Positions 1 through 26,052 of a DNA stretch of 26,600 nucleotides are shown in pieces (positions within the stretch are counted from its first letter, which is position 1; each line of letters begins with the position of its first letter). The position numbers and the translations under genes were made by a program. Below the pieces are notes generated by a model. It worked only from the letters and a program-made list of their open reading frames with translations, was not told where the DNA came from and did no database searches. The stretch comes from an uncultured Marvinbryantia sp. (GTDB lineage Bacteria; Bacillota; Clostridia; Lachnospirales; Lachnospiraceae): the NCBI GenBank assembly GCA_934394985.1, contig CAKRRF010000031.1, forward strand, positions 1 through 26,600. The letters are read 5' to 3'.

Positions 1-150
1 GGTGCAGCTGTATGGCAGACACTGGAAAATGGTCTGAACATGATCGGTGCACAGGTAGGTATCCAGCGAGTAGTCATCGGTGTCATCGTAGTAGTAGCCG
101 TTCTTCTGGACGTAGTCGTACGTAACGGAAAATTCGGAAAAAGAAAATAG
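1..150 (+). CDS. Sugar ABC transporter permease, RbsC-like (C-terminal 49 residues)
   Basis: An open frame enters from the left edge and ends at TAG 148-150. The visible end has a short amphipathic stretch (AAVWQTLENGLNMIGAQ), then one hydrophobic helix rich in Val and Ile, then a basic tail ending GKFGKRK. The pattern of a short loop, a last membrane helix and a basic cytoplasmic tail is typical of RbsC/BPD_transp_2 permeases of ribose-type sugar importers. The next gene is an RbsB-like binding protein, which supports the call. The ATPase and the rest of the permease should lie upstream, outside the window. The substrate cannot be inferred. Confidence 0.75.
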   Translation, partial: GAAVWQTLENGLNMIGAQVGIQRVVIGVIVVVAVLLDVVVRNGKFGKRK

Positions 151-279: not shown

Positions 280-1206
280 ATGAAAAAGAAATTATTAGCA
301 GCTATCTGCGCAGCAACAATGGTATTCTCAATGGGAACAGTAGCATTTGCAGATGACGAAGTAAAGGCAACCGGAGACGAGAAGATCGCTCTGATCACTA
401 TGGACTCCATCGACCAGCACTGGATCACATTGAATGAAGGTGCACAGAAAGCAGCTGAAGAATTTGGTGTAACCGTAGACTTCATGTCCCCGAATACCAA
501 AGATGATGCACAGCAGATCGAATGTGTAAACAACGCAGTAGCAGGCGGCTACGGTGCCATCATGGTAGCGGCAAACGGACCGGATGCAATTTCATCTGCA
601 TTACAGGAAGCAGTAGACGGCGGAGTTAAGATCGTATACGTTGACTCCCCTGCAAACGTAGAAGCATCCGCTACATTCTCCACAGACAACAAGGCAGCAG
701 GCCAGACAGCCGGCGAAGAAATGATCAAAGCTCTGGAAGATGCAGGCGTTACATCCGGTAAGATCGGTATCATCAATGTAAACGCAGCAACAGACTCCTG
801 TGTAAACAGAGAAGAAGGCTTCCGTGCAGCATTTGACGGATCTGACTTCGAACTGATGGAAACACAGTACGGCGAAGGTGATGCAGCAAAATCTCAGAGT
901 ATCGCAGAAAACTATATTACACAGGGTGTTGTCGGTATCTTTGGTTGTAACGAAGGATCCACAACAGGTGCCGGCAATGCCATCAAAGCTTCCGGAAACG
1001 ATGCAATCGTCGGTGTTGGTTTTGACAAATCTGATGCAATCCTGAACCTGATCGATGACGGATATCTGTATGCAACTATGGCTCAGAACCCAGACGTTAT
1101 GGGATACGAAGGCGTAAAAGCAGCCATCCAGGCAATCAACGGCGAAGACCTTGGCGGCGAAGTAACAGATACCGGTGTATCCGTACTGACAAAAGAAAGC
1201 AAATAA
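280..1206 (+). CDS. Sugar ABC transporter substrate-binding protein, RbsB-like (periplasmic binding protein type 1)
   Basis: This 308-residue protein is a Peripla_BP_4/RbsB-type sugar receptor, consistent in length with the family. It has an N-terminal signal peptide (MKKK, hydrophobic stretch, AFA then DDE, probable cleavage after residue 24). The first lobe begins with the typical IALITMDSIDQHW strand and continues with a helix carrying NEGAQKAAEEFGV. Later family landmarks are the IMVAANGPDAISSAL segment and IGIINVNAATDS. It starts at an ATG 9 bases after a strong AGGAGGG site. It follows the RbsC-like permease, so it is the receptor of that importer. Oddly, no lipobox cysteine precedes the mature domain, although Gram-positive receptors are normally lipoproteins. 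The sugar is unknown. Confidence 0.9.
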   Translation: MKKKLLAAICAATMVFSMGTVAFADDEVKATGDEKIALITMDSIDQHWITLNEGAQKAAEEFGVTVDFMSPNTKDDAQQIECVNNAVAGGYGAIMVAANGPDAISSALQEAVDGGVKIVYVDSPANVEASATFSTDNKAAGQTAGEEMIKALEDAGVTSGKIGIINVNAATDSCVNREEGFRAAFDGSDFELMETQYGEGDAAKSQSIAENYITQGVVGIFGCNEGSTTGAGNAIKASGNDAIVGVGFDKSDAILNLIDDGYLYATMAQNPDVMGYEGVKAAIQAINGEDLGGEVTDTGVSVLTKESK

Positions 1207-1229: not shown

Positions 1230-1259
1230 AAAAACCGTCGCACCCCCGCGGCGGTTTTT
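1230..1259 (+). terminator. Rho-independent terminator after the binding-protein gene
   Basis: The left arm AAAAACCGTCGC (1230-1241) pairs with GCGGCGGTTTTT (1248-1259) over 12 positions with one G-U wobble. The loop is six bases and the right arm ends in five T. It separates the transporter genes from the downstream regulatory operon. Confidence 0.85.
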
Positions 1260-1273
1260 CCGGTTACAGAAAA

Positions 1274-1302
1274 TTGACCGAAAAGCGAAAGTATGAGACA
1301 AT
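1274..1302 (+). promoter_or_regulatory. Candidate sigma-A promoter for the two-component operon
   Basis: TTGACC (1274-1279), a 17-base spacer and GACAAT (1297-1302) lie just after the terminator and 31 bases before the response regulator start. The -10 hexamer matches 4 of 6, so this is plausible but not strong. Confidence 0.45.
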
Positions 1303-1332: not shown

Positions 1333-2928
1333 ATGGGAAACTTGAAAGTTGTTATTGCAGACGATGAGGAACGGATCTGCCAGCTGATTCAGGCATTAAT
1401 TAACTGGGACAGTCTGGAAATGGAGATCGCAGGGATGGCACACAACGGGATCGAAGCATTTGATGCGGTACAGAAGGTGTGTCCGGATATCCTGATCACA
1501 GACATCCGGATGCCTGGATTGTCAGGTCTGGAATTAATTGAGAAAGTAAAGGCAGCATGCCCGGAGGTGGAGATTATAATTATCAGCGGGTATGCCCATT
1601 TTGAATATGCGCAGCAGGCTATCCGGTTTGGTGTAGGCCACTATCTGTTAAAGCCGATTAATAAGGCGGAACTGACAGAGACACTGGAGAAGCTGAAGAG
1701 TAAGATCGGTCAGCGGCAGGAATCCGAGCGGGACAAGCAGATCCTGATCCAGAAGGCACAGAAGAATGAAGATTATATGCGCAGCAAGCTGCTGACACAG
1801 CTTTTAAACGGGGAACCGGTATCCCTGACAGAAGAGATTCTGCAGAATCAGTACGGGATTACGCTGAAAGCCGGGCTGATTCAGCCATTTAGCCTGAAGA
1901 TGGACTGCGAGGAAGAGGCACTTGGTGTGTCCTCAGTATCGGTTTTAATGGAAAAAGCACTGGAGATTCTGGACCGGAACCTTCGGGAAAAAGGACTGGA
2001 TCCGATTATGGAATGCCAGGGATTTTACTGTATCGGTCTGTTGAATTATGAAAGCAGGCAGCAGGAGGATGTGCGCAGGATTCTGAAGAATGCGCTGGCG
2101 CAGATGGAACTGCAGAAGGCCATTTTCAAATCGGTAGAGTTTTCCATGGCACTGGGAAAAGCCGTGAGAAGAGCAGAAGAACTGGAAGATGCAGGACCGG
2201 AGTTGTCCAGGCTGATCTGCCAGAGGCTGGTAAAGGGCAGCGGTCGGATTCTGGAGCAGCAGGAGAACTATTCTTCCCTGCAGGGAGAACGGCTGCTGGA
2301 CAAATATATTCGTGAGATCACCCATGCAGTGGAAGTGATGAGTACAGATCTTGCGGATGAATCGGCTGTTTATCTGCAGAAAAAGGTCAGTGAGGCAAGG
2401 AATCCACGGGGGTGCGATATCCTGGATCTGGTATACAGCGCAGCAGATGTCTTTACAGCGTGCATACAGATCGCTAACCGCACCGAATGTCTGGAAGTTT
2501 TTCGCAGACAGTGTGAACAGTGTGCAAGTGGGGAAAAACTTTTTGCCACTTTGCGGGAATTCCAGAAGAAATACATTCGTGAGATAGAAGAAAAACGGGA
2601 AAATGACCGTGTGCGTCCGATCCGGAAGGCTAAGGAATATATTCAGAATCACTATGGAGAACCGATTACCCTGGAAGAGGTCAGTGGAGAAGTGGGATTG
2701 AGCCCTACTTATTTCAGTGTGTTATTTAAAAAGACAGAAGGGGAGGGATTTGCCAGATATCTGATTAATGTACGGATGGAGCAGGCGAAGATCCTTTTAC
2801 GCGAAACCAATCTTCCTGTGGTAGAGATCTGTAAGAAGGTAGGCTACAATGATCTGAAGCATTTTACACAGACATTTGAAAAAGCAACAGAAGTCAAACC
2901 ATCTACTTATCGTAAATTATACGGATAA
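1333..2928 (+). CDS. Two-component response regulator, REC plus AraC-type DNA-binding domain (YesN-like)
   Basis: This 531-residue protein has an N-terminal receiver domain (about residues 4-120). The acidic pair is D10/D11, the phospho-acceptor is D57 in ITDIRMPG, with S85 in IISGY and K107 in LLKPIN. A long middle region of unknown fold follows (about 125-425). The C-terminal AraC helix-turn-helix pair (about 430-530) has AKEYIQNHYGEPITLEEV and the second motif ending VGYNDLKHFTQTFEKATEVKPSTYRK. YesN-type regulators typically switch on a nearby transporter when phosphorylated by a YesM-type kinase. The kinase gene starts 18 bases downstream. The sugar transporter just upstream is the likely target (inference). 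The start is preceded by GGGGAAG. Confidence 0.92.
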   Translation: MGNLKVVIADDEERICQLIQALINWDSLEMEIAGMAHNGIEAFDAVQKVCPDILITDIRMPGLSGLELIEKVKAACPEVEIIIISGYAHFEYAQQAIRFGVGHYLLKPINKAELTETLEKLKSKIGQRQESERDKQILIQKAQKNEDYMRSKLLTQLLNGEPVSLTEEILQNQYGITLKAGLIQPFSLKMDCEEEALGVSSVSVLMEKALEILDRNLREKGLDPIMECQGFYCIGLLNYESRQQEDVRRILKNALAQMELQKAIFKSVEFSMALGKAVRRAEELEDAGPELSRLICQRLVKGSGRILEQQENYSSLQGERLLDKYIREITHAVEVMSTDLADESAVYLQKKVSEARNPRGCDILDLVYSAADVFTACIQIANRTECLEVFRRQCEQCASGEKLFATLREFQKKYIREIEEKRENDRVRPIRKAKEYIQNHYGEPITLEEVSGEVGLSPTYFSVLFKKTEGEGFARYLINVRMEQAKILLRETNLPVVEICKKVGYNDLKHFTQTFEKATEVKPSTYRKLYG

Positions 2929-2946: not shown

Positions 2947-3996
2947 ATGAAGAAAAAAAGAAGTATTCGTTATATTTCAGGAAGAGTCTGGTGGATGGGA
3001 ATGGCAGTGCTGACGCTTCTGTGTATACTGGCAGTGACTCAGGTGGTATTATTTTCTCGTGATCAGGCACCTTTGTGGAGTATGCTGATGACAGTCACAG
3101 CTCTGATTGCCTATCTGGTGACCGCAAATTTCTGGGTTCGCAGACCATATGATCAGGCTGAGAAGACCATGCAGCGTTTTCTGGAAGGATATATGATTAT
3201 GGAAGGGGATGGCGCCAGGGCCGCCTTACTGACACCGACTACTGCGGAAGAAATGAAGTTTATGGAAAGGTTTCTGCATTCTCCGCAGATGATGGATCTG
3301 AATAAACGGCAGGCACAGTATCTGGCACTTCAGAATCAGATCAATCCACATTTCCTGTATAATACGTTAGAAAGTATCCGGGGCGAGGCTTTGATTGCTG
3401 GGCTGGACGGAGTGGCAGACATGACAGAGGCGCTGGCGAAGTTTTTCCGGTACACCATCACGAAAGTAGAAAATCTGGTATCTGTAGAAGAGGAACTGGA
3501 CAACTGTGAGACCTATTTTGGGATCCAGAAGTATCGATTTGGGGATCGGTTAAATCTGCATATTGAATATGATCCGAAAGAATACGAGAAGATTATGAAC
3601 TGCCGGATTCCGAAGCTGACGCTGCAGCCAATCCTGGAGAATAGTATTATTCACGGAACAGAACTGAAGATCGGGGCAGGAAATCTGTATATTCGGTTTG
3701 CCTGCACCCAGGACCGGCTGATTATCTGTATTTCAGATGATGGAGTGGGAATGGACGAAGAGACTCTGGCAGCGCTGAATCGGAAGCTGGGACGGGGAAA
3801 TGATTCCTTTGGATCTTCTGATGAAAAGAAAGGCGGTATTGCCCTGGTGAATGTAAACAACCGTATCCACCTGATCTTTGGAGATGAATATGGTATGCAT
3901 ATTTATTCTGTTCCGCAAAGGGGAACCGATGTGGAGATTACCATTCCGATCACGGCAAATGACCGGGATGTGAAGAATCGGAGTGGGCTGGCATGA
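2947..3996 (+). CDS. Sensor histidine kinase of the LytS/YesM type, without extracellular sensor domain
   Basis: This 349-residue kinase has two membrane helices (about residues 15-36 and 43-63) joined by a loop of only about seven residues. It therefore has no ectodomain to bind a ligand. The cytoplasmic part carries the His_kinase motif QINPHFLYN with H135, the N-box LQPILENSIIHG (N232) and the ATP-binding DDGVGMD (264-270), followed by GGIALVNVNNRIHLIFG. All catalytic motifs look intact. Full YesM kinases are usually longer because they carry an extracellular domain. It sits between the response regulator and the RbsA-like gene and overlaps the latter by four bases (ATGA), so the three are probably co-translated. 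The signal may come from a protein partner rather than a direct ligand (inference). Confidence 0.92.
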   Translation: MKKKRSIRYISGRVWWMGMAVLTLLCILAVTQVVLFSRDQAPLWSMLMTVTALIAYLVTANFWVRRPYDQAEKTMQRFLEGYMIMEGDGARAALLTPTTAEEMKFMERFLHSPQMMDLNKRQAQYLALQNQINPHFLYNTLESIRGEALIAGLDGVADMTEALAKFFRYTITKVENLVSVEEELDNCETYFGIQKYRFGDRLNLHIEYDPKEYEKIMNCRIPKLTLQPILENSIIHGTELKIGAGNLYIRFACTQDRLIICISDDGVGMDEETLAALNRKLGRGNDSFGSSDEKKGGIALVNVNNRIHLIFGDEYGMHIYSVPQRGTDVEITIPITANDRDVKNRSGLA

Positions 3997-5468
3997 GAAA
4001 AGAAATCTTACGAATGGAGCGAGTTACTTATAAAGATGCAGATATGACTCGTCTGGAGGATTTTAATCTGCAGATTTATGAGGGGGAGATTATGGGAATG
4101 CTGCCCTTTAACGGACAGGGCATGATGGCTCTCTTAAAACTGCTGCAGGTAAATCTGCCATTGTATGACGGTTATATTTATTATAATGGAGAGCTGGTGA
4201 ATTCCTGGAAGGAATCCTCCGGAACGCATAATCGAATTGGAATCATTCAGGCGGAGAGCTCTCTGGTGGAGTCCATGACGATTGCGGATAATGTGTTTGT
4301 TATGCGGCATGGATTTAAGCAGGAGATTATTCATACGGAGTTGTTGAATCGTCAGCTTCAGCCATTTTTAAAGGAAATCGGAATGGAGATGACAGCGGAG
4401 ACGAAGGTAGAGAGACTGACGGTGTTTCAGCGAATTATTGTGGAACTTCTCCGTTCGGTGGTAGCTGGCAATCATCTGATTGTACTGGAAGAGATTGGCG
4501 CACTGATCAGTGACCGGGAACTGGAACAACTGCATCAGATCCTGCATCATTATGCAGAAAAAGGATTTTCCTTTCTGTACATCAGCCCTCACTTTGAAGA
4601 GGAGAAGAATTTCTGTGACAGGGTGTCATTTCTGACTAACGGACGGATCTGGAAAGTCATTCCCAAAGAGATGATGAAAAATCAGACCTGGGAGATCTAC
4701 GATTACAACCACTACAATATGGAATATAATCAGATGGTGCGTTTCCATCTGGAAAAAAGAGAACGGGAAGGTACGGAGCGAGAATTATACACTGTTTGGC
4801 GTTCTTTCAGTGAGGCGATCAACAGAAACATTGAGTTCCCTGTCTACAGGGGAGAATATCTGGCTGTTCAGATTCATGAGAATAAGATTCTCCAGGAAAT
4901 GATTGAAAAACTGCAGACCGATATCATAAAAGATGAGAAAGCGGCAATTATTCAGGAATCGCCCACGTCCAGTATGATTTTCCATGGACTAAGCTACATG
5001 GATAATCTGTGTATGTCGCTTTCCAGAAGAATGGGAAATATCTGGAAAAACAACAGTATACGGGGAAGTATCCGCAGAGAATACGAAGACATTCTGGGGG
5101 AAGATGCGTTTGACATGAAAGTGGAAGATCTTAGTGAGAGACAGAAATACCAGCTGATTTACAGCCGTGTGATGCTTCAGAATCCCCAGATTGTATATTG
5201 CATTAAACCATTTAAAGGAGCAGACCTGGCTCACCGAATTCATATCTGGAAACTCCTGAAGATGCTGCTGGATCGTGGAATCACAGTAGTGGATATTTCG
5301 CTGAATCTTTCAGATTCGCTGTCCCTGGCAGACCGACTATTGATGATTGAGCATGATGGCACTGTCCGGGAGATCCCAAAAGAAAACTTTGCATTTGTGC
5401 CACGGAATGTTCCGTGGGGAACCTTCTACAGAGGAGGTAAAACACAGGGAGCATATCACGAAAAATGA
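3993..5468 (+). CDS. RbsA-like double ABC ATPase homologue with degenerate catalytic motifs (pseudo-ATPase)
   Basis: This 491-residue protein has the length and two-domain layout of RbsA sugar ATPases, but the catalytic residues are gone. In domain 1 the Walker A site reads GMLPFNGQGMMA (35-46), with Met44 where the essential Lys should be and Met-Ala in place of Ser-Thr. The signature is LTVFQ (142-146) instead of LSxGQ, and Walker B reads VLEEIG, with Glu for Asp. In domain 2 the signature is LSERQ, and the Walker B region reads YCIKPFKG with no acidic pair. The reading frame is long and uninterrupted, so it appears selected for rather than decaying. It overlaps the kinase gene by four bases, which suggests a regulatory role in the signalling unit, perhaps docking on the permease. 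A defective transporter ATPase is the alternative. Confidence 0.75.
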   Translation: MRKEILRMERVTYKDADMTRLEDFNLQIYEGEIMGMLPFNGQGMMALLKLLQVNLPLYDGYIYYNGELVNSWKESSGTHNRIGIIQAESSLVESMTIADNVFVMRHGFKQEIIHTELLNRQLQPFLKEIGMEMTAETKVERLTVFQRIIVELLRSVVAGNHLIVLEEIGALISDRELEQLHQILHHYAEKGFSFLYISPHFEEEKNFCDRVSFLTNGRIWKVIPKEMMKNQTWEIYDYNHYNMEYNQMVRFHLEKREREGTERELYTVWRSFSEAINRNIEFPVYRGEYLAVQIHENKILQEMIEKLQTDIIKDEKAAIIQESPTSSMIFHGLSYMDNLCMSLSRRMGNIWKNNSIRGSIRREYEDILGEDAFDMKVEDLSERQKYQLIYSRVMLQNPQIVYCIKPFKGADLAHRIHIWKLLKMLLDRGITVVDISLNLSDSLSLADRLLMIEHDGTVREIPKENFAFVPRNVPWGTFYRGGKTQGAYHEK

Positions 5469-6882: not shown

Positions 6883-7530
6883 ATGAGATACAAATTAGTC
6901 ATATTTGATTTAGACGGAACCATTTTAGATACTTTAGAAGATCTGGCAGACAGCACGAATTATGCGTTGTCTGTTTATCATATGCCAGAGCATACGATAG
7001 ATGAGGTACGCTGGTTTGTGGGTAATGGCATACATAAGCTGATCGAGCGTGCAGTTCCGAAGGACAGTAGCGAAGATGTGATCGAACAGGTATTTACTAC
7101 ATTTAAAGAATATTATAAAGATCACTGTGCCGTGAAGACATGCCCTTATGATGGAATGATGGAATTATTGAAAACATTACGAGAACAGGGAATACTGACA
7201 GCGGTAGTTTCTAATAAAGGAGATTTTGCGGTACAGATTCTCTGCAAAGACTATTTCCCGGAAATGTTTGACTTTGCAGTAGGAGAAAGGGAAGATATTC
7301 GACGAAAACCGGCGCCGGACAGTGTACTGGCAGTATTAGAAAAATTCCAGATCAGCAAGGACGAAGCAGTTTATATCGGCGATTCCGAAGTAGACATTCA
7401 GACAGCTGACAACGCCGGTATGAAAGAAATTGCGGTTACATGGGGATTCCGCCCGGAAGCATTCTTAAAAGAAAATGGTGCAGACTGTATCGTCCACACC
7501 ACGGAAGAATTGTTGAAGGCACTTACTTAA
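6883..7530 (+). CDS. HAD-superfamily phosphatase, phosphoglycolate phosphatase-like
   Basis: This 215-residue protein has all four HAD motifs: FDLDGTILDT (nucleophile D9, acid D11), VVSNKG (motif II Ser), RRKPAPD (motif III Lys) and YIGDSEVD (motif IV acids). The helical cap between residues 15 and 85 places it in the Gph/beta-phosphoglucomutase-like subclass I, and the cap looks like that of Gph-type phosphatases. It would remove phosphate from a small cytosolic metabolite, possibly 2-phosphoglycolate. The exact substrate cannot be read from the sequence. It follows the remnant region and has a weak AAAAAGGA site about 12 bases before the ATG. No clear terminator follows, only AT-rich DNA. 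Confidence 0.9.
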   Translation: MRYKLVIFDLDGTILDTLEDLADSTNYALSVYHMPEHTIDEVRWFVGNGIHKLIERAVPKDSSEDVIEQVFTTFKEYYKDHCAVKTCPYDGMMELLKTLREQGILTAVVSNKGDFAVQILCKDYFPEMFDFAVGEREDIRRKPAPDSVLAVLEKFQISKDEAVYIGDSEVDIQTADNAGMKEIAVTWGFRPEAFLKENGADCIVHTTEELLKALT

Positions 7531-7608
7531 ATTTAAATATAGGAAAAAAGAAATTAAAATATACATAAATAAACTTATTATTTTATATTTTTTATTGACG
7601 TGAAAAGA

Positions 7609-7637
7609 ATTGACACAACCAGTTTTTTATTATACAG
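7609..7637 (+). promoter_or_regulatory. Candidate promoter of the BMP transporter operon
   Basis: TTGACA with a 17-base spacer to TACAGT (4 of 6 at -10), in an AT-rich 160-base gap. The BMP start lies about 55 bases downstream. The consensus -35 is clear, but the choice of -10 is uncertain because TATACA and TATAAT occur nearby at poorer spacing. Confidence 0.5.
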
Positions 7638-7690
7638 TTATAATTGTGAGCACTTATATCACTTTTACATTTTGGAGGAGGACGTAGAGG

Positions 7691-8866
7691 ATGAAACGTA
7701 CAAAATTACTTACAGTTTTAATGACAACTGCCATCGCAGCAATAGGTGCGGTATGTGCAGCAGATGCAGAAGGTATTCCGGCAGAGGATCTGAAGGTCGG
7801 AGCCATCTATATCGGTGATGAGAATGAAGGTTATACCGCTGCACATATGGCAGGTATTGATGCGATGATGGAACAGTTTGGTCTGGATGAATCTCAGGTG
7901 ATTGAGAAGACTCTGATCGGAGAAGATGAAACCTGCTACGATGCAGCAGCAGACCTGGCAGATCAGGGATGCCAGATTATCTTTGGTACCAGCTTTGGCC
8001 ATGAGACTTATCTGATTCAGGCAGCAGGAGAGTTCCCGGATGTACAGTTCTGTCATGCAACCGGTTATCAGGCTGCAAGCTGTGGACTGGACAATATGCA
8101 CAACTATTTTGATAACATTTATGAAGCAAGATATGTATCCGGTGTAGTTGCAGGTATGAAGCTGAATGAAATGATCGAGAACGGTGATATCACAGAAGAT
8201 CAGGCAAGAATCGGATATGTAGGTGCTTATCCATATGCGGAAGTAATTTCCGGATTTACATCCTTCTATCTTGGTGCTAAGAGCCAGTGTCCGTCTGTTA
8301 CTATGGAAGTAAAATATACGAACAGCTGGGCAAGTTTCGACCTGGAAAAAGAATGTGCTGAAGCTCTGATCGCAGACGGATGTGTTCTGATCGGACAGCA
8401 TGCAGATACAACAGGCGCTCCGACAGCCGCTCAGGCAGCAGGCGTTCCTTGTGTTGGATACAATGTAGACATGATCGAGACAGCTCCTGACTCTGCACTG
8501 ACCTCCTCATCAAATAACTGGGGTGTATACTACACCTACGCAGTACAGTGCATGGTAGACGGAACAGAAATCGACAAAGACTGGACATCAGGCCTGAAAG
8601 ATGGTGCAGTTTTGATTACTCCGCTGAATGAAAATATTGTTGCGGAAGGAACACAGGAAAAAGTAGACGAAGTAGAAGCAGCAATTGAAGATGGATCTCT
8701 TCATGTGTTTGATACAGCTACATGGACTGTGGATGGAGAAACACTGGATACTTACGAAAAGAATGGTGTAGAATATATCTCCGACGGATATTTCCATGAA
8801 TCTGAATATGGTTCAGCTCCGGCATTCGATATCATCATTGATGGCATTGATTCTATCGTAGAATAA
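7691..8866 (+). CDS. BMP-family ABC transporter substrate-binding protein (nucleoside type)
   Basis: This 391-residue protein belongs to the BMP/PnrA family (Bmp domain, PF02608). Landmarks are LKVGAIYIGDENEGYTAAH near the start, the CQIIFGTSFGHETY segment, FCHATGYQ, and GVVAGMKLNEM before the second-lobe strand IGYVGAYPYAEVI. Members bind purine nucleosides or related ligands. The N-terminus is a signal peptide, but the only nearby cysteine (C22) sits in GAVC rather than a good lipobox, so anchoring is uncertain. A GGAGGAGG site precedes the ATG. The downstream ATPase and two permeases complete a transporter like the lactococcal BmpA-NupABC or streptococcal Rns systems. A hairpin separates it from the ATPase gene, which would favour higher receptor expression. 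Confidence 0.92.
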   Translation: MKRTKLLTVLMTTAIAAIGAVCAADAEGIPAEDLKVGAIYIGDENEGYTAAHMAGIDAMMEQFGLDESQVIEKTLIGEDETCYDAAADLADQGCQIIFGTSFGHETYLIQAAGEFPDVQFCHATGYQAASCGLDNMHNYFDNIYEARYVSGVVAGMKLNEMIENGDITEDQARIGYVGAYPYAEVISGFTSFYLGAKSQCPSVTMEVKYTNSWASFDLEKECAEALIADGCVLIGQHADTTGAPTAAQAAGVPCVGYNVDMIETAPDSALTSSSNNWGVYYTYAVQCMVDGTEIDKDWTSGLKDGAVLITPLNENIVAEGTQEKVDEVEAAIEDGSLHVFDTATWTVDGETLDTYEKNGVEYISDGYFHESEYGSAPAFDIIIDGIDSIVE

Positions 8867-8887
8867 AAAGAGGCGAAGCTTTATACG

Positions 8888-8909
8888 GGGGTTGCAGAGA
8901 TGCAACCCC
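8888..8909 (+). other. 9-bp hairpin between receptor and ATPase genes
   Basis: GGGGTTGCA (8888-8896) and TGCAACCCC (8901-8909) form a perfect stem with a GAGA tetraloop of the GNRA class. Only a weak T-rich stretch (TATCTTTA) follows, so it probably attenuates or stabilises rather than fully terminates. Confidence 0.6.
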
Positions 8910-8934
8910 TATCTTTATCGTAGGAGGAACATAC

Positions 8935-10473
8935 GTGGAGCAGACATACGCAATAGAACTGCACAACATCACCAAACGTTTCGGAAGTGTTACAGCGAAT
9001 GAAAAGGTAGACCTGGAAGTAAGAAAGGGAGAGATTCTCTGTCTGCTTGGTGAAAACGGCAGTGGAAAGACCACATTAATGAATATGATATCCGGTATTT
9101 ATTATCCGGATGAAGGAAAGATAAAAGTAGACGGACGCGAGGTAAAAATACGATCTCCGAAAGATTCCTTTGATCTGGGGATTGGAATGGTGCACCAGCA
9201 CTTTAAGCTGGTGGACATCCTGACTGCAGCAGAAAATATCATTCTCGGACTGCCGGGAAAACAGATCCTGAATATGAAACAGGTGAACAGAGAAATTTTA
9301 GAGCTTGCTGCAAAATATGGATTTGAAATTGATCCCAAAAAGAAAATCTATCAGATGTCTGTATCAGAAAAACAGACAGTAGAGATTGTCAAATTGTTAT
9401 ATCGTGGCGCCCGGATACTGATTCTGGATGAACCGACAGCAGTGCTGACACCGCAGGAGTCAGACCGTCTTTTTGAAGTGTTGAGAAATATGAAAAAAGA
9501 CGGATGTTCGATTATACTGATTACGCACAAGTTACATGAAGTATTGTCGGTATCAGATCGGGTGTCCATTCTGAGAAAGGGACTATACATTGATACAGTC
9601 AAGACTTCAGAGGCTACAGTAGAATCTCTGACCGAGATGATGGTAGGGGCTAAAGTAGAGCTGAATATTGACCGGCCGGATCCGGTGAATCCGATCAAAC
9701 GTCTGGAGCTGAAAAATGTTACCTGCAAAGATAACAATGAGGTAGTGACACTGGATCATGCAGATCTTACCGTATATGGCGGAGAGATACTGGGTATCGC
9801 AGGTATTTCAGGAGGCGGCCAGAAAGAACTTCTGGAGGCAATTGCAGGACTTCAGCATGTATCAGAAGGAAGCATTACGTTTTATCCGGAAGAAAATCAG
9901 GCAAGAGAGATTACAAACCGTGATGTGGGAGATATTCGTGCATTAGGTGTGCGTCTGGCATTTGTACCGGAAGACCGTCTGGGAATGGGACTGGTAGCTT
10001 CTATGGATATGACAGATAACATTATGCTGAGAAGTTATCAGAAGGGAAAATCCTCTTTCCTGGATCGTAAGACTCCGGGAGAACTGGCTCAAAAAATCAA
10101 AGACCAGCTGGAGATTGTTACACCGAGTATATCCGCTCCGGTAGGACAGATGTCTGGCGGAAATGTGCAGAAGGTACTGGTTGGCCGTGAAATTGCACAG
10201 AAGCCAAAGGTATTGATGGTGGCCTATCCGACCAGAGGAATTGATATCAATTCTTCATATGCTATCTACAATCTGTTAAATGAGCAGAAGAAAAAAGGTG
10301 TAGCAGTGATCTGTGTCATTGAAGACCTGGATGTGCTTCTGGAATTGTGTGACCGTATTGCAGTACTTTGCGGCGGACAGATTACCGGTATTCTTGATGG
10401 AAGAACTGCGAAAAAAGACGAGGTTGGTGTATTGATGACAAAGCATGAGAAGGGAGGCGTTTCCCATGAATAA
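8935..10473 (+). CDS. BMP-type nucleoside ABC transporter ATP-binding protein (two NBDs)
   Basis: This 512-residue double ATPase starts at GTG, eight bases after AGGAGG. Domain 1 has Walker A GENGSGKTT (39-47), a signature region MSVSEKQ in place of the usual LSVGEQQ, and Walker B LILDEPTAVLT. Domain 2 has the family-typical Walker A without lysine (GISGGGQKEL), the good signature MSGGNVQK and MVAYPTRGID. Lack of the second Walker A lysine is normal for BMP/sugar-type double ATPases, so it should be active, unlike the RbsA-like protein at 3993-5468. It energises the two permeases encoded next. It overlaps the first permease gene by eight bases (ATGAATAA). Confidence 0.93.
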   Translation: MEQTYAIELHNITKRFGSVTANEKVDLEVRKGEILCLLGENGSGKTTLMNMISGIYYPDEGKIKVDGREVKIRSPKDSFDLGIGMVHQHFKLVDILTAAENIILGLPGKQILNMKQVNREILELAAKYGFEIDPKKKIYQMSVSEKQTVEIVKLLYRGARILILDEPTAVLTPQESDRLFEVLRNMKKDGCSIILITHKLHEVLSVSDRVSILRKGLYIDTVKTSEATVESLTEMMVGAKVELNIDRPDPVNPIKRLELKNVTCKDNNEVVTLDHADLTVYGGEILGIAGISGGGQKELLEAIAGLQHVSEGSITFYPEENQAREITNRDVGDIRALGVRLAFVPEDRLGMGLVASMDMTDNIMLRSYQKGKSSFLDRKTPGELAQKIKDQLEIVTPSISAPVGQMSGGNVQKVLVGREIAQKPKVLMVAYPTRGIDINSSYAIYNLLNEQKKKGVAVICVIEDLDVLLELCDRIAVLCGGQITGILDGRTAKKDEVGVLMTKHEKGGVSHE

Positions 10474-11542
10474 AGAACCGATGTTTCATATGTCCAAACG
10501 GGAATCCGTCAGTCTTGGAAAACGAATAGCCATTTATATTATGGCCATTATCCTTGCCCTGATTGTCTGTGCAGCAGTTATTGTAGGACTGGTACACATG
10601 AATCCGCTGGAAGTCTATAAAGCTATTTTTGATGGAGCGCTGGGAAGCAGCCGTCGTATCTGGATTACGATTCGTGATATGCTGGTACTTTTATGTATTG
10701 CAGTTGGTCTGGCTCCGGCATTTAAAATGCGTTTCTGGAATATTGGCGCAGAAGGACAGGTACTGATCGGAGGCGTAGTATCCGCAGCCTGCATGATCTA
10801 TCTGGGAGGAAAAATACCAAATGCAGTTCTGATTCTGCTTATGATAGCGCTCAGCGCCATAGGTGGACTGATCTGGGGTCTGATTCCTACTTTCTTTAAG
10901 GCACACTGGAATACCAATGAGACATTATTTACTTTGATGATGAACTATGTGGCAATGCAGGTAGTCACATTCTGCATTTGCTTCTGGGAGAATCCAAAAG
11001 GATCGAACAGTGTAGGTATCATCAATCAGGCCACACAGGCAGGATGGCTTCCACCGGTAGCAGGAAATGTTTATTTCTGGAATGTAGTGATTGTTACTAT
11101 ACTGACAGTTGCAATGTTCATTTATCTGAAATACAGTAAGCAGGGATATGAAGTGGCAGTTGTGGGAGAAAGTGACAATACTGCCCGTTATGCCGGTATT
11201 AATGTTGGCAAAGTAATGATGCGTACCATGGCGATTTCCGGAGCAATCTGCGGTATTGCAGGATTTATTCTGGTCAGCGGATCAGGCCATACCATTTCCA
11301 CATCGACAGCAAATGGCCGCGGTTTCACTGCTATTATCGTAGCCTGGATGGCGAAGTTTAATACATTTGTTATGATTCTGATTGCGTTTGGACTGGTATT
11401 TATGGAAAAGGGTGCCACGCAGATTGCATCACAGTATGGACTGAATGAGAATGCATCCAGTATCATGCTGGGTATTATTCTTTTCTTCCTGCTTGGCGCA
11501 GAATTCTTTATGAACTATAAAATAGAAAGAAATAAAAAATAG
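10466..11542 (+). CDS. BMP-type nucleoside ABC transporter permease 1
   Basis: This 358-residue integral membrane protein is of the BPD_transp_2 family. The start at 10466 is chosen because GGGAGG lies seven bases upstream. An upstream in-frame ATG at 10445 lacks such a site and lies deeper inside the ATPase gene. It shows about nine hydrophobic segments. The family's EAA-like cytoplasmic region is AGINVGKVMMRTMAISGAI, and FWNIGAEGQVLIGG is typical of nucleoside permeases (YufP/NupB-like). It would pair with the second permease to form the channel. The C-terminus ends in a basic KIERNKK tail. Thirteen bases separate it from the next gene. Confidence 0.92.
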   Translation: MNKEPMFHMSKRESVSLGKRIAIYIMAIILALIVCAAVIVGLVHMNPLEVYKAIFDGALGSSRRIWITIRDMLVLLCIAVGLAPAFKMRFWNIGAEGQVLIGGVVSAACMIYLGGKIPNAVLILLMIALSAIGGLIWGLIPTFFKAHWNTNETLFTLMMNYVAMQVVTFCICFWENPKGSNSVGIINQATQAGWLPPVAGNVYFWNVVIVTILTVAMFIYLKYSKQGYEVAVVGESDNTARYAGINVGKVMMRTMAISGAICGIAGFILVSGSGHTISTSTANGRGFTAIIVAWMAKFNTFVMILIAFGLVFMEKGATQIASQYGLNENASSIMLGIILFFLLGAEFFMNYKIERNKK

Positions 11543-11554
11543 GAGGAACTTGCA

Positions 11555-12535
11555 TTGAGCACACTTATTATTTTTATTCAAAAAGCAATCGTTCAGGGCA
11601 TGGGAATCCTGTTTGGAGCAGAAGGCGAGATCCTGACAGAAAAATCCGGTAACCTGAACCTGGGAATCCCGGGAATCATGTATATGGGGGGAATTGCCGG
11701 ACTGATGGGCGCTTTTTTCTATGAAAAAAGCACGGAAAATCCGAGTGCTGTGATGGGAATGCTGATTTCCCTGCTCTGTGCATTTGTATGTGCGATGCTG
11801 GGTGGTCTGATTTACAGTGTCCTGACGATTACCCTGCGCGCAAATCAGAATGTAACAGGTCTGGCGCTGACTACCTTTGGTACCGGCTTTGGTAACTTCT
11901 TTGGAGGATCTATTTCCAAGCTGGCAGGAGGTGTGGGACAAATCTCTGTCAGCACCACAGCCGGAGCTTATCAGGCGAAGATTCCGGGGCTGTCGAAGAT
12001 CCCGGTGATCGGAAATATATTCTTCTCCTACGGTTTCCTGACTTATACAGCCATTTTACTGGCGGTAGTATTATCATTCTTTCTGTTCCGTACCAGGAAT
12101 GGACTGAATCTTCGTGCAATAGGAGAAAATCCGGGTACTGCGGATGCAGCCGGAATCAATGTCAGCAAATACAAGTATCTGGCTACCTGCATTGGATCTG
12201 GTATTGCAGGACTTGGCGGATTGTATTTTGTTATGGAATACAGTGGTGGTACCTGGACGGATAATGGATTTGGTGACAGAGGATGGCTTGCAGTTGCACT
12301 GGTTATTTTTGCCATGTGGAAACCATTAAATGCCATTTGGGGTTCTATCCTTTTTGGTGCATTATATATTCTGTATCTGTATATTCCGGGACTTGGAAGA
12401 AGTACCCAGGAAATTTTTAAAGCACTGCCGTATGTGGTAACCATTATCGTATTGGTAGTCATCAGCTTCCGTAAAAAGAAAGAAGATCAGCCGCCGGAAG
12501 GATTGGGGCAGGCTTACTTCAGGGAGGAACGCTAA
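11555..12535 (+). CDS. BMP-type nucleoside ABC transporter permease 2
   Basis: This 326-residue membrane protein starts at a TTG codon nine bases after AGGAGG. GAEGEILTEKSGNLNLGIPG near the start is the typical YufQ/NupC-like motif of the shorter BMP-system permease, and AIGENPGTADAAGINV is the cytoplasmic coupling region. About eight to nine hydrophobic segments are visible. It completes the nucleoside-type transporter with the preceding permease and ATPase. The unusual TTG start may lower expression. The YfhO-family gene begins only 15 bases after its stop, with no terminator between them. Confidence 0.92.
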   Translation: MSTLIIFIQKAIVQGMGILFGAEGEILTEKSGNLNLGIPGIMYMGGIAGLMGAFFYEKSTENPSAVMGMLISLLCAFVCAMLGGLIYSVLTITLRANQNVTGLALTTFGTGFGNFFGGSISKLAGGVGQISVSTTAGAYQAKIPGLSKIPVIGNIFFSYGFLTYTAILLAVVLSFFLFRTRNGLNLRAIGENPGTADAAGINVSKYKYLATCIGSGIAGLGGLYFVMEYSGGTWTDNGFGDRGWLAVALVIFAMWKPLNAIWGSILFGALYILYLYIPGLGRSTQEIFKALPYVVTIIVLVVISFRKKKEDQPPEGLGQAYFREER

Positions 12536-24468: not shown

Positions 24469-26052
24469 ATGGGGTTTGAAGAAGATACACAAGCACGGGC
24501 GGCCAGAAGAAAAAAAAGAAAACGAAGACAGAGAACCATGGGATTTCTGATTTTGATTCTGATTATTTTGCTGATAGCCGGCGCAGCAGGCTTTGTGATA
24601 TTGGGAAATGGCGGAGACAATCTGGAACTGGTAAAAAACGGATTGGGCACCGCCGGAGAGACTGTTTCGGGGTGGATTCAGTCAGGAAAAAAAGCATTGC
24701 CGAATGGGATAAAAGAAAAGCTTCCGGCAGGATGGTTTGAGGCTGAGACAGAAAGTGAAACAGAGACAGAGACACAGCCGCAGACAGAAACGGAGACAGA
24801 AGACCATTCTGATGAAGAAGCAGCTCAGCTGATTGCACAGGCAGATCAGATGGCGGTATCGTATGATTATGACGGTGCAACGGCACTTTTGAAGGCATCT
24901 CCATTATATGGGACAAGAACAGACCTTCAGCAGAAAGCGGCAGATTATGAAGCTCAGAAGGCAGCCTGTGTGGCGATTACACCGGAAGAAGTGACGCATG
25001 TGTTCTATCATACACTGGTTGTAGAACCGGCTAAGGCATTTAATCCTGATCTGGATGGATATGCCGGATGGCAGCAGTGGATGACTACAGTTTCTGAATT
25101 CGATGAGATTACCCAGGAGATGTATGACAGGGGCTATGTACTGGTTGGCATTCATGATCTGATTAAGAAAAAGACGAATGAAGATGGTACGGTGACCCTT
25201 GAACCAAATACGATCTATCTTCCGGAAGGGAAGAAGGCATTTGTAATGTCACTGGATGATCTGTGCTATTATCACACCTATGATAATCATGGAGTGGCAT
25301 CTAAGATTGTACTGGATGAGAATGGAAAACCAACCTGTGAATATATACAGGATGACGGTACAGTGGTGACCGGTGCTTATGATGCAGTGCCGAGACTGGA
25401 TGCATTTCTGGAAGAGCATCCGGACGGATGCTACAAAGGTGCAAGAGGAATCATTGCGCTGACCGGTTATAACGGAATTCTCGGATATCGCACAGACGGA
25501 ACCTACAGTGAGGACCATAATACAAATTCAGAGGTTTACTATCGCGATGATCTGCAGTCTGAATGGCTGGCGAATCATCCGGATTTTAACTGGGAACAGG
25601 AATGTGCCGATGCCAAAGCTGTGGCAGAAGCCATGAAAGCAGACGGATGGGAGTTTGCAAGTCATACCTGGGGTCACAAGAATGTGGGTGAAACACCATA
25701 TGATGATCTGGTAAGAGACACGGAGAGATGGTTTGAGTATGTATCACCGCTGATTGGTGAGACAGATGCGATCATTTTTGCACATGGTGCGGATATTGCA
25801 TCCGGTGGATACACCAGTGATAATGAAAAATATACGTACCTTAAGAGCAAGGGATTTGATATTTACTGTCCGGTAGATTCAGAAGCTTATACGACAACCC
25901 TGACTTCGGAATATCTTCATCAGGGCAGACGGGATCTGGATGGTTACAGAATTTATAATGATGCCATTTCAGAGAACCCGATGACAGCAGATCTGTTTGA
26001 TGCAAATAAAGTGCTGGATCCGGACAGACCACTTCCGGTACCGGATCTGTAA
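24469..26052 (+). CDS. Membrane-anchored NodB-like polysaccharide deacetylase homologue
   Basis: This 527-residue protein has a very basic cytoplasmic N-terminus (ARRKKRKRRQR), one membrane helix (about 25-46) and a Glu/Thr linker (TESETETETQPQTETETED, about 97-116). A large extracellular domain follows. MSLDDLCYYH (near residue 259) fits the CE4 motif 1 Asp pair, and SHTWGHKN (near 397) fits the HxxxH zinc motif. The motif 3 Arg-Pro site of typical CE4 enzymes is not visible, and the region reads IIFAHGADIASGG. It would act on a cell-wall or surface glycan N-acetyl group if active. The GAAGG site precedes the ATG. Because motif 3 is missing, the substrate or activity may differ from known deacetylases. 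Confidence 0.7.
   Translation: MGFEEDTQARAARRKKRKRRQRTMGFLILILIILLIAGAAGFVILGNGGDNLELVKNGLGTAGETVSGWIQSGKKALPNGIKEKLPAGWFEAETESETETETQPQTETETEDHSDEEAAQLIAQADQMAVSYDYDGATALLKASPLYGTRTDLQQKAADYEAQKAACVAITPEEVTHVFYHTLVVEPAKAFNPDLDGYAGWQQWMTTVSEFDEITQEMYDRGYVLVGIHDLIKKKTNEDGTVTLEPNTIYLPEGKKAFVMSLDDLCYYHTYDNHGVASKIVLDENGKPTCEYIQDDGTVVTGAYDAVPRLDAFLEEHPDGCYKGARGIIALTGYNGILGYRTDGTYSEDHNTNSEVYYRDDLQSEWLANHPDFNWEQECADAKAVAEAMKADGWEFASHTWGHKNVGETPYDDLVRDTERWFEYVSPLIGETDAIIFAHGADIASGGYTSDNEKYTYLKSKGFDIYCPVDSEAYTTTLTSEYLHQGRRDLDGYRIYNDAISENPMTADLFDANKVLDPDRPLPVPDL

Follow-up and report, generated by a model that had tools for sequence, protein, structure and literature searches.

A degenerate RbsA-type ATPase as a candidate signalling adaptor between RbsC-type permeases and sensorless YesM-type kinases

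The stretch of DNA analysed here (the window) comprises positions 1-26,600 of contig CAKRRF010000031.1 from an uncultured Marvinbryantia sp. (assembly GCA_934394985.1). A gene at 3993..5468 (+ strand, ATG to TGA) encodes a 491-residue relative of the importer ATPase RbsA that is linked to a histidine kinase. On the plus strand it is preceded by the 3' end of an RbsC permease gene and by genes for an RbsB-type sugar-binding protein (SBP), a response regulator and the kinase, whose stop codon it overlaps by four bases (ATGA, 3993-3996). We propose, with a probability of about two in three, that an importer ATPase has here been turned into a signalling adaptor between RbsC-type permeases and YesM-type kinases that carry no sensor domain. 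The proposal is drawn from sequences; within it we infer that activity is lost and which proteins touch, as well as the direction of signalling, the genes under control and the ligand. If true, it would explain the signal input of many sensorless sugar-linked kinases in gut Clostridia, and this would be the first case, in the literature searched, of an ATP-binding cassette (ABC) importer ATPase that serves a histidine kinase as a pseudoenzyme adaptor. A full-text search, judged by titles and the starts of abstracts and with most subscription papers and all preprints outside its scope, found no description of a kinase paired with a pseudo-ATPase of RbsA type.

Fold and conserved degeneration of the pseudo-ATPase

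The first nucleotide-binding domain (NBD1) of the window protein matches ABC_tran at 44.4 bits (cut-off 25), which places it in the ABC ATPase superfamily, and the AlphaFold2 model is that of an ABC ATPase with two NBDs (predicted local distance difference test score, pLDDT, 80.5; predicted template modelling score, pTM, 0.63). Pfam gives only ABC_tran and a weak match to NTPase_1, and nothing of a PhoU-type adaptor. The NCBIfam models of RbsA/XylG type match far under their cut-offs (97.8 against 745 bits for RbsA, 148.9 against 699 for the xylose type), so that the protein does not score as an RbsA-type importer ATPase. No RbsA structure is among the structure matches listed for it. ABC-F proteins do occur among the fold matches, and an ABC-F-like function was considered and rejected; we took these matches to reflect the shared double-NBD fold, and the gene context does not fit.

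The RbsA of locus L003 served as motif reference for a residue-by-residue comparison, in which all positions lie on the plus strand. The degenerate Walker A of NBD1 (residues 38-46, PFNGQGMMA, 4104..4130) has P38 for the first glycine and M44 for the lysine, the Q-loop glutamine is A87, the signature reads LTVFQR (4416..4433), and the H-loop histidine is P199, with a histidine at 200. Walker B of NBD1 (LIVLEEI, 4476..4496) keeps two acids, E166 in place of the aspartate and E167 still at the catalytic glutamate position. The NBD2 signature has become LSERQKYQ (5130..5153), the Walker B D/E pair is I404/K405, and the Walker B/D-loop segment (5190..5225) is a conserved IVYCIKPFKGAD, with IVFCIQPFKGAD as the majority in the alignment A1 described below. 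An earlier note, made from the letters of this DNA, had read a full-length gene with a four-base kinase overlap, an RbsA layout, a methionine 44 in place of the Walker A lysine and the loss of the LSxGQ signatures, all of which is borne out; its claim that the Walker B acids are lost stands for NBD2 and fails for NBD1. Judged by its motifs, the window protein is probably no longer able to hydrolyse ATP.

The homologues scored as matches number 572, and among the 120 listed there are full-length ones down to 47% identity. The few source names listed call them sugar ABC ATP-binding protein, hypothetical protein and once prevent-host-death protein, and importers and regulators are therefore likely miscounted. 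We aligned the proteins of 80 loci (the best 80 of 137 found) with the 42 rows of A1, that is, the window protein and 41 database homologues; the resulting 122 sequences, one of them contained in another, form 106 clusters at 90% identity. A full Walker A is found in none of the 122, and the same is true of the second signature (SGG) and of a histidine at the aligned H-loop column, many sequences carrying a histidine one place later. Because the same losses recur in 122 sequences (106 clusters), they go beyond chance. The catalytic glutamate position of NBD1 is acidic in 75/80 loci and 41/42 A1 rows. Many positions are invariant in A1, including new motifs at former catalytic sites, and FERVVVE and CIQPF are conserved in place of old motifs. 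As far as the alignments reach, the degeneration is conserved, yet some clades have not lost everything; the idea that the family as a whole has no motif left was dropped in view of the sequences with surviving Walker B1 D-E and lysine and of the wider relatives with Walker A that are described below.

With its catalytic motifs gone, the protein might be a decaying ATPase heading for loss. We give this virtually no credence, and hold decay to be refuted for the window's clade: the open reading frames (ORFs) of the 80 loci are at least 445 residues long, new family-specific residues have become invariant, and the ratio of nonsynonymous to synonymous substitution rates (dN/dS) of the pseudo-ATPase gene lies at 0.05-0.23 for 13 out of 14 close pairs, near the values of kinase and regulator. 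The fourteenth pair (L057/L058) gives 0.33, a value distorted by an ORF error. A kinase fusion in L057/L058, suggested by ORFs of 922-923 residues, was rejected, the N-terminal part being a wrong-frame extension that has no kinase match. The earlier note, which suggested that the protein could be a signalling subunit seated on the permease and reporting transport to the kinase, had expected the motif loss to be conserved next to YesMN genes and maintained by purifying selection. Our results agree with this expectation (no full Walker A among the 122, low dN/dS, a kinase at 79/80 loci) and support its reading; intact orthologues or decay, which it named as telling against its idea, are not seen in the window's clade. 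Outside this clade, early-branching kinase-linked proteins keep all (L180) or part (L193) of the ATPase motifs.

In a tree, a single branch (FastTree support 0.996) parts all 64 real RbsA from all 76 kinase-linked proteins (the window protein, 55 wider relatives and proteins from 20 of the 80 loci); the real RbsA were chosen by RbsA-profile score, very diverged importers being excluded. Closest to real RbsA on the kinase-linked side stand L180, in which Walker A, Walker B and LSGGNQQK are all still present, and L193, whose kinase retains about 200 residues between two membrane segments. Farther away come proteins with Walker A only, and then with none. L180 and L193 fit descent from an active ATPase, and the series from an intact member to dead ones would, if the proposal is true, be a case of pseudoenzyme evolution. 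The motifs kept by these early relatives could also be taken to mean that the protein is still an ATPase, of unusual chemistry, which powers the importer with or instead of RbsA, and the stretches fetched for L138 and L174 contain no further RbsA (here and below, none over 400 bits). We consider this very improbable, since neither a full Walker A nor signature 2 occurs in the 122 sequences of the window's kind, and since intact RbsA stands alongside: among the 61 RbsA-bearing loci aligned, 60 have a neighbouring real RbsA with all of Walker A1, Walker B1 and signature 2.

Linkage to sensorless kinases

The kinase gene of the window (2947..3996, +) encodes 349 residues with matches to PF06580 (90.6 bits) and HATPase_c (35.9 bits), and thus belongs to the YesM/LytS family. 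Both of its membrane segments lie in a helical hairpin (residues 10-37 and 43-79, 2974..3183, +; AlphaFold2 model and hydropathy), joined in the model by a loop of residues 38-42. Hydropathy and the model give no sensor domain, and no extracellular domain that could bind an SBP.

Neighbour tables, built by tblastn and profile searches, show how closely the two genes are tied. A kinase lies at most 400 nt upstream of the pseudo-ATPase gene in 78/80 loci by rule and in 79/80 when L079 is counted; at the remaining locus, L022, the contig starts inside the pseudo-ATPase gene. The response regulator is present in 77/80 loci, the other three (L022, L033, L078) being cut by the contig end, and the gap between kinase and pseudo-ATPase gene is -4 in 40 of the 77 loci measured. 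Real RbsA lies within 10 kb in 62/80 loci, and in 50 of the 52 whose flanks reach 7.5 kb or more upstream and 4 kb or more downstream. All of 16 further loci, two of which (L119 and L120) are nearly identical in appearance, hold the regulator, kinase and pseudo-ATPase genes with an RbsABC set placed upstream, downstream or divergently; L112 and L113 carry another, diverged importer. At L001 (6532-10004, Blautia sp. MSJ-9) the RbsA, regulator and kinase ORFs seem shortened, the pseudo-ATPase gene is of full length, and RbsC and SBP were not found at the locus, which resembles an internal deletion or an assembly error.

Six genomes searched whole hold one pseudo-ATPase gene each, more than 100 orders of magnitude in E-value ahead of the next RbsA-like match. 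Among 299 Lachnospiraceae genomes, with 5 candidates scored per genome, at least 17 are positive, G044 with two copies; this is a lower bound because the window-type pair of G143 (L133) was missed.

The linkage also holds when it is viewed from the kinase. The kinase profile has at least 77 matches in 47 of the 299 genomes (E 1e-70), again a lower bound, as at most 7 candidates were scored per genome. Eighteen of the 77 are of the window type, with kinase and pseudo-ATPase genes adjacent by coordinates, and at the 59 other loci, which were fetched, an RbsA-like gene is directly next in 55. Altogether, 73 of the kinases have an RbsA-like gene after them, one is fused with such a gene, and three have it upstream. 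The upstream cases are L174 and L168, with the order pseudo-ATPase, SBP, RbsC, regulator and kinase (the pseudo-ATPase ORF of L168 having only 254 residues), and L166, with an RbsA-like fragment of 251 residues. In the fused case, L161, one ORF holds the kinase (27-370) and a single pseudo-NBD1 (400-614, E 6e-28), which gives indirect support for control of the kinase by a transporter subunit. The fusion lies at 6921-8768 (-), beside a shortened regulator (253 residues) and an RbsABC set near the window type.

As a control we took all 18 PF06580 matches of G091 and G041, picked as long single contigs with known matches. An RbsA-like gene follows 6 of the 7 short kinases (304-368 residues) and none of the 11 long ones (440-645 residues; hypergeometric 0.0004). 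The short kinase that has no such partner, L205, has its own PocR sensory domain, and therefore all six sensorless kinases of the control have a partner. In a phylum sample, kinase and pseudo-ATPase gene occur in the same 7 of 398 genomes, of which G003 and G006 were already known carriers.

The fetched stretches also include kinases that lack more than a sensor. Those of L168, L185, L186, L189 and L192 show no membrane segment by hydropathy, and their frame closes just after the regulator gene; the L174 kinase scores none either, its start being uncertain, and L162, with its kinase ORF at a contig edge, was not used for this. Real RbsA is found in 48/59 fetched stretches and not in 11. Of the latter, L138, L168, L174, L185 and L189 have RbsC in one cluster with the pseudo-ATPase gene, and L139, L141, L186 and L194, all short contig pieces, hold neither RbsC nor SBP; L150 and L158 are taken up below. 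L168 and L189 also have an SBP match. At L168, L185 and L189, with RbsC in the cluster, no RbsA and a membrane-free kinase, the pseudo-ATPase would be the sole evident bridge between permease and kinase. After the L189 cluster comes a gene whose product is a solute-binding protein of an unrelated kind (SBP_bac_5). At L147, L167 and L191 an extra RbsC-type permease gene directly follows the pseudo-ATPase gene, apart from the RbsA-RbsC set.

Such loci bear on the possibility that the protein regulates transport itself, as a dead RbsA that contends with the real one for RbsC or slows it there (inducer exclusion), its link to the kinase being co-regulation only. The nearby real RbsA at 62/80 loci agrees with such a brake, as does the conserved NBD1 groove described below. 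The four-base overlap in 40/77 measured loci, the kinase fusion and the way the gene tracks sensorless kinases do not, and some fetched stretches hold no RbsA to brake. We regard this explanation as quite unlikely.

Conserved surfaces and a possible mechanism

In real RbsA the conservation of Walker A, of the Q-loop and of signature 2 is conspicuous. In the pseudo-ATPase family the NBD1 Walker A falls to z -0.01 to 0.12, versus 1.03-1.48 in real RbsA, and the NBD2 Walker A is below average. The NBD1 segment after the Q-loop (residues 91-104, 4263..4304, +) is the best or joint-best conserved of the segments compared, with z 0.93 versus 0.59 in real RbsA, and with 0.86 and 0.90 versus 0.34 in two separate subsets. 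We take this segment to be the groove for the permease coupling helix, as it is in MalK-type importers. The NBD2 groove shows a modest rise in the separate-subset comparison (0.50 and 0.32 versus 0.16). It is chiefly because the NBD1 groove is conserved, which is indirect, that we suggest docking on the RbsC permease. Relaxation of the whole ATP site was considered and dropped in view of the conserved NBD1 signature and NBD2 Walker B segments.

The proposed adaptor would descend from the ATPase subunit, RbsA, of a sugar importer of RbsABC type. Its NBD lobes probably still attach it to a dimer of RbsC-type permeases, and its partner would be the sensorless YesM-type kinase encoded by the adjacent gene. 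Engagement of the permease by a sugar-loaded SBP would lead its coupling helices to shift the dead NBD pair, which, having no ATP cycle to drive, would pass the movement on to the kinase; the response regulator of the kinase would then switch on the importer genes.

A different source of the signal can be imagined, namely a cytosolic ligand (nucleotide or sugar phosphate) that the adaptor senses in its remodelled NBD sites and by which it sets the kinase, with no permease reporting. Walker A-like loops with lysine and Walker B acids do survive in some clades, the catalytic glutamate position is acidic at most loci (75/80), and the new motifs FERVVVE and CIQPF, with the well-conserved NBD1 signature and NBD2 Walker B segments, could form such a site. 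However, both Walker A segments are among the least conserved and the NBD1 groove is the best or joint best, and a membrane partner is suggested by those clusters that encode RbsC in a fetched stretch lacking RbsA. We consider a cytosolic ligand of this kind unlikely.

Some of our observations weigh against an adaptor that reports from the permease. L054 and L057 have good flanks and no importer nearby, L027 has no real RbsA or importer within 10 kb upstream, and L150 and L158 hold an SBP and neither RbsC nor RbsA in 15-16 kb; the RbsA-like proteins of the last two keep Walker A. The kinase of L114 (G170) is in two pieces and apparently frame-disrupted. Walker B1 D-E persists together with the Walker A lysine in 10/80 loci and 7/42 A1 rows, Walker A is kept in 13/55 wider relatives and all three motifs in one, and nucleotide binding is therefore possible family-wide. 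The NBD2 groove shows no rise in the first comparison (z 0.46 versus 0.50), and conservation persists, with new residues, in the segments of the NBD1 signature and the NBD2 Walker B (0.55-0.86), so that the old sites may have a new use. The case for docking is built on conservation and on where the groove lies in other importers, and adaptors seated on RbsA or on the assembled importer would give the same pattern.

The adaptor proposal can be extended to a wider reading that we put forward tentatively, at somewhat less than even odds. Here the whole importer architecture would serve as a receptor: SBP, RbsC-type permease and ATP-dead RbsA, not transporting, would drive a kinase devoid of a sensor or even of a membrane anchor. 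The arrangement would have arisen once from an active ATPase, with stepwise loss of ATP chemistry while the kinase lost its sensor, and would now serve many different importers. L168, L185 and L189 would be the receptor-only end state.

The window locus and known systems

Of the neighbouring importer's gene for an RbsC-type permease, the window includes only the 3' end (1..150, +), the remainder being upstream; the translation of this end corresponds to the RbsC C-terminus of L006, L002, L003 and L048, and the L003 RbsC is a BPD_transp_2 protein. The SBP gene (280..1206, +) matches Peripla_BP_4 at 178 bits, and its product is 62-88% identical to SBPs labelled at related loci and, as to substrate class, RbsB-like by score. 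Its signal peptide (280-370) has no lipobox cysteine, which is unusual for a Gram-positive importer and unlike the L003 SBP, where a cysteine can be read at this position. At 34/80 loci, including L003, L005 and L008, the SBP ORF exceeds 560 residues and encodes two RbsB domains in tandem, and each of these has about 69-85% identity to the window SBP with its single domain; one tandem domain per complex is conceivable. A probable intrinsic terminator (1231..1258; 11-bp stem, 3' arm ending in T), read from the sequence, lies 3' of the SBP gene and was not listed by the terminator scan, perhaps because its T run falls within the stem. A promoter-like site (1274..1302, +; 9/12 consensus, 17-nt spacer) precedes the gene for the YesN-type response regulator (1333..2928, +; receiver and AraC domains, Response_reg and HTH_18/HTH_AraC); it is weak, as such sites in the region number no more than chance. 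Farther away, the window holds another ABC importer (7691-12535), which is of Bmp/PnrA type and comes with an ATPase and two permeases of its own, and a 527-residue ORF (24469-26052) with no Pfam match at E 1e-5.

The protein shares homology and the two-NBD layout with the RbsA/MglA/XylG importer ATPases of NCBIfam, from which it differs in its lost composite ATP site motifs, its own side of the tree and its link to a kinase. XylFII-LytS is said to be a three-component system of SBP and kinase. In CuaD-CuaS-CuaR the SBP CuaD binds the kinase CuaS, modelled on the extracellular domains of CuaS (PMC10384115). With both, our system has in common a sugar SBP and a two-component system for sugar uptake genes in Clostridia; unlike CuaS, the kinases here have no extracellular domains. 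An S-component fold is common to ECF importers and 5TMR kinases (PMC11109136), so that an importer part is akin to a receptor part there as well, though it is a membrane component there and an ATPase here. An importer ATPase subunit acting as a regulator is also known from MalK, an active ATPase that controls the transcription factor MalT, whereas the protein described here is inactive by motif and proposed to act on a kinase.

BceS is an intramembrane-sensing kinase of two helices. This definition agrees with PMC3023708, and the sensorless kinase of the window, with its two membrane helices (10-37, 43-79) and short loop, fits it. In Bce-type modules (BceAB-BceS-BceR) an ABC transporter works with a two-component kinase (PMC10314905), and the comparison with these modules made in the earlier note is apt in kind, because here too the kinase has no sensor domain. 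However, BceAB is a working antimicrobial-peptide transporter, whereas here the NBD protein is dead by motif, the kinase is of PF06580 class, and the neighbouring transporter, with its SBP (Peripla_BP_4) and RbsC-type permease (BPD_transp_2 in L003), is not of Bce type. The PstSCAB importer reports through a separate adaptor, PhoU, to PhoR, a kinase that has no periplasmic sensor (PMC5775613; PMC6978683). We propose the same arrangement here, an ABC transporter informing a sensor-free kinase through a separate adaptor. PhoU, however, is not an NBD. PstB is an active ATPase, and the adaptor here is, by its model, an NBD pair. The window system belongs to neither Bce nor Pst-PhoU-PhoR, as permease, kinase class and adaptor differ.

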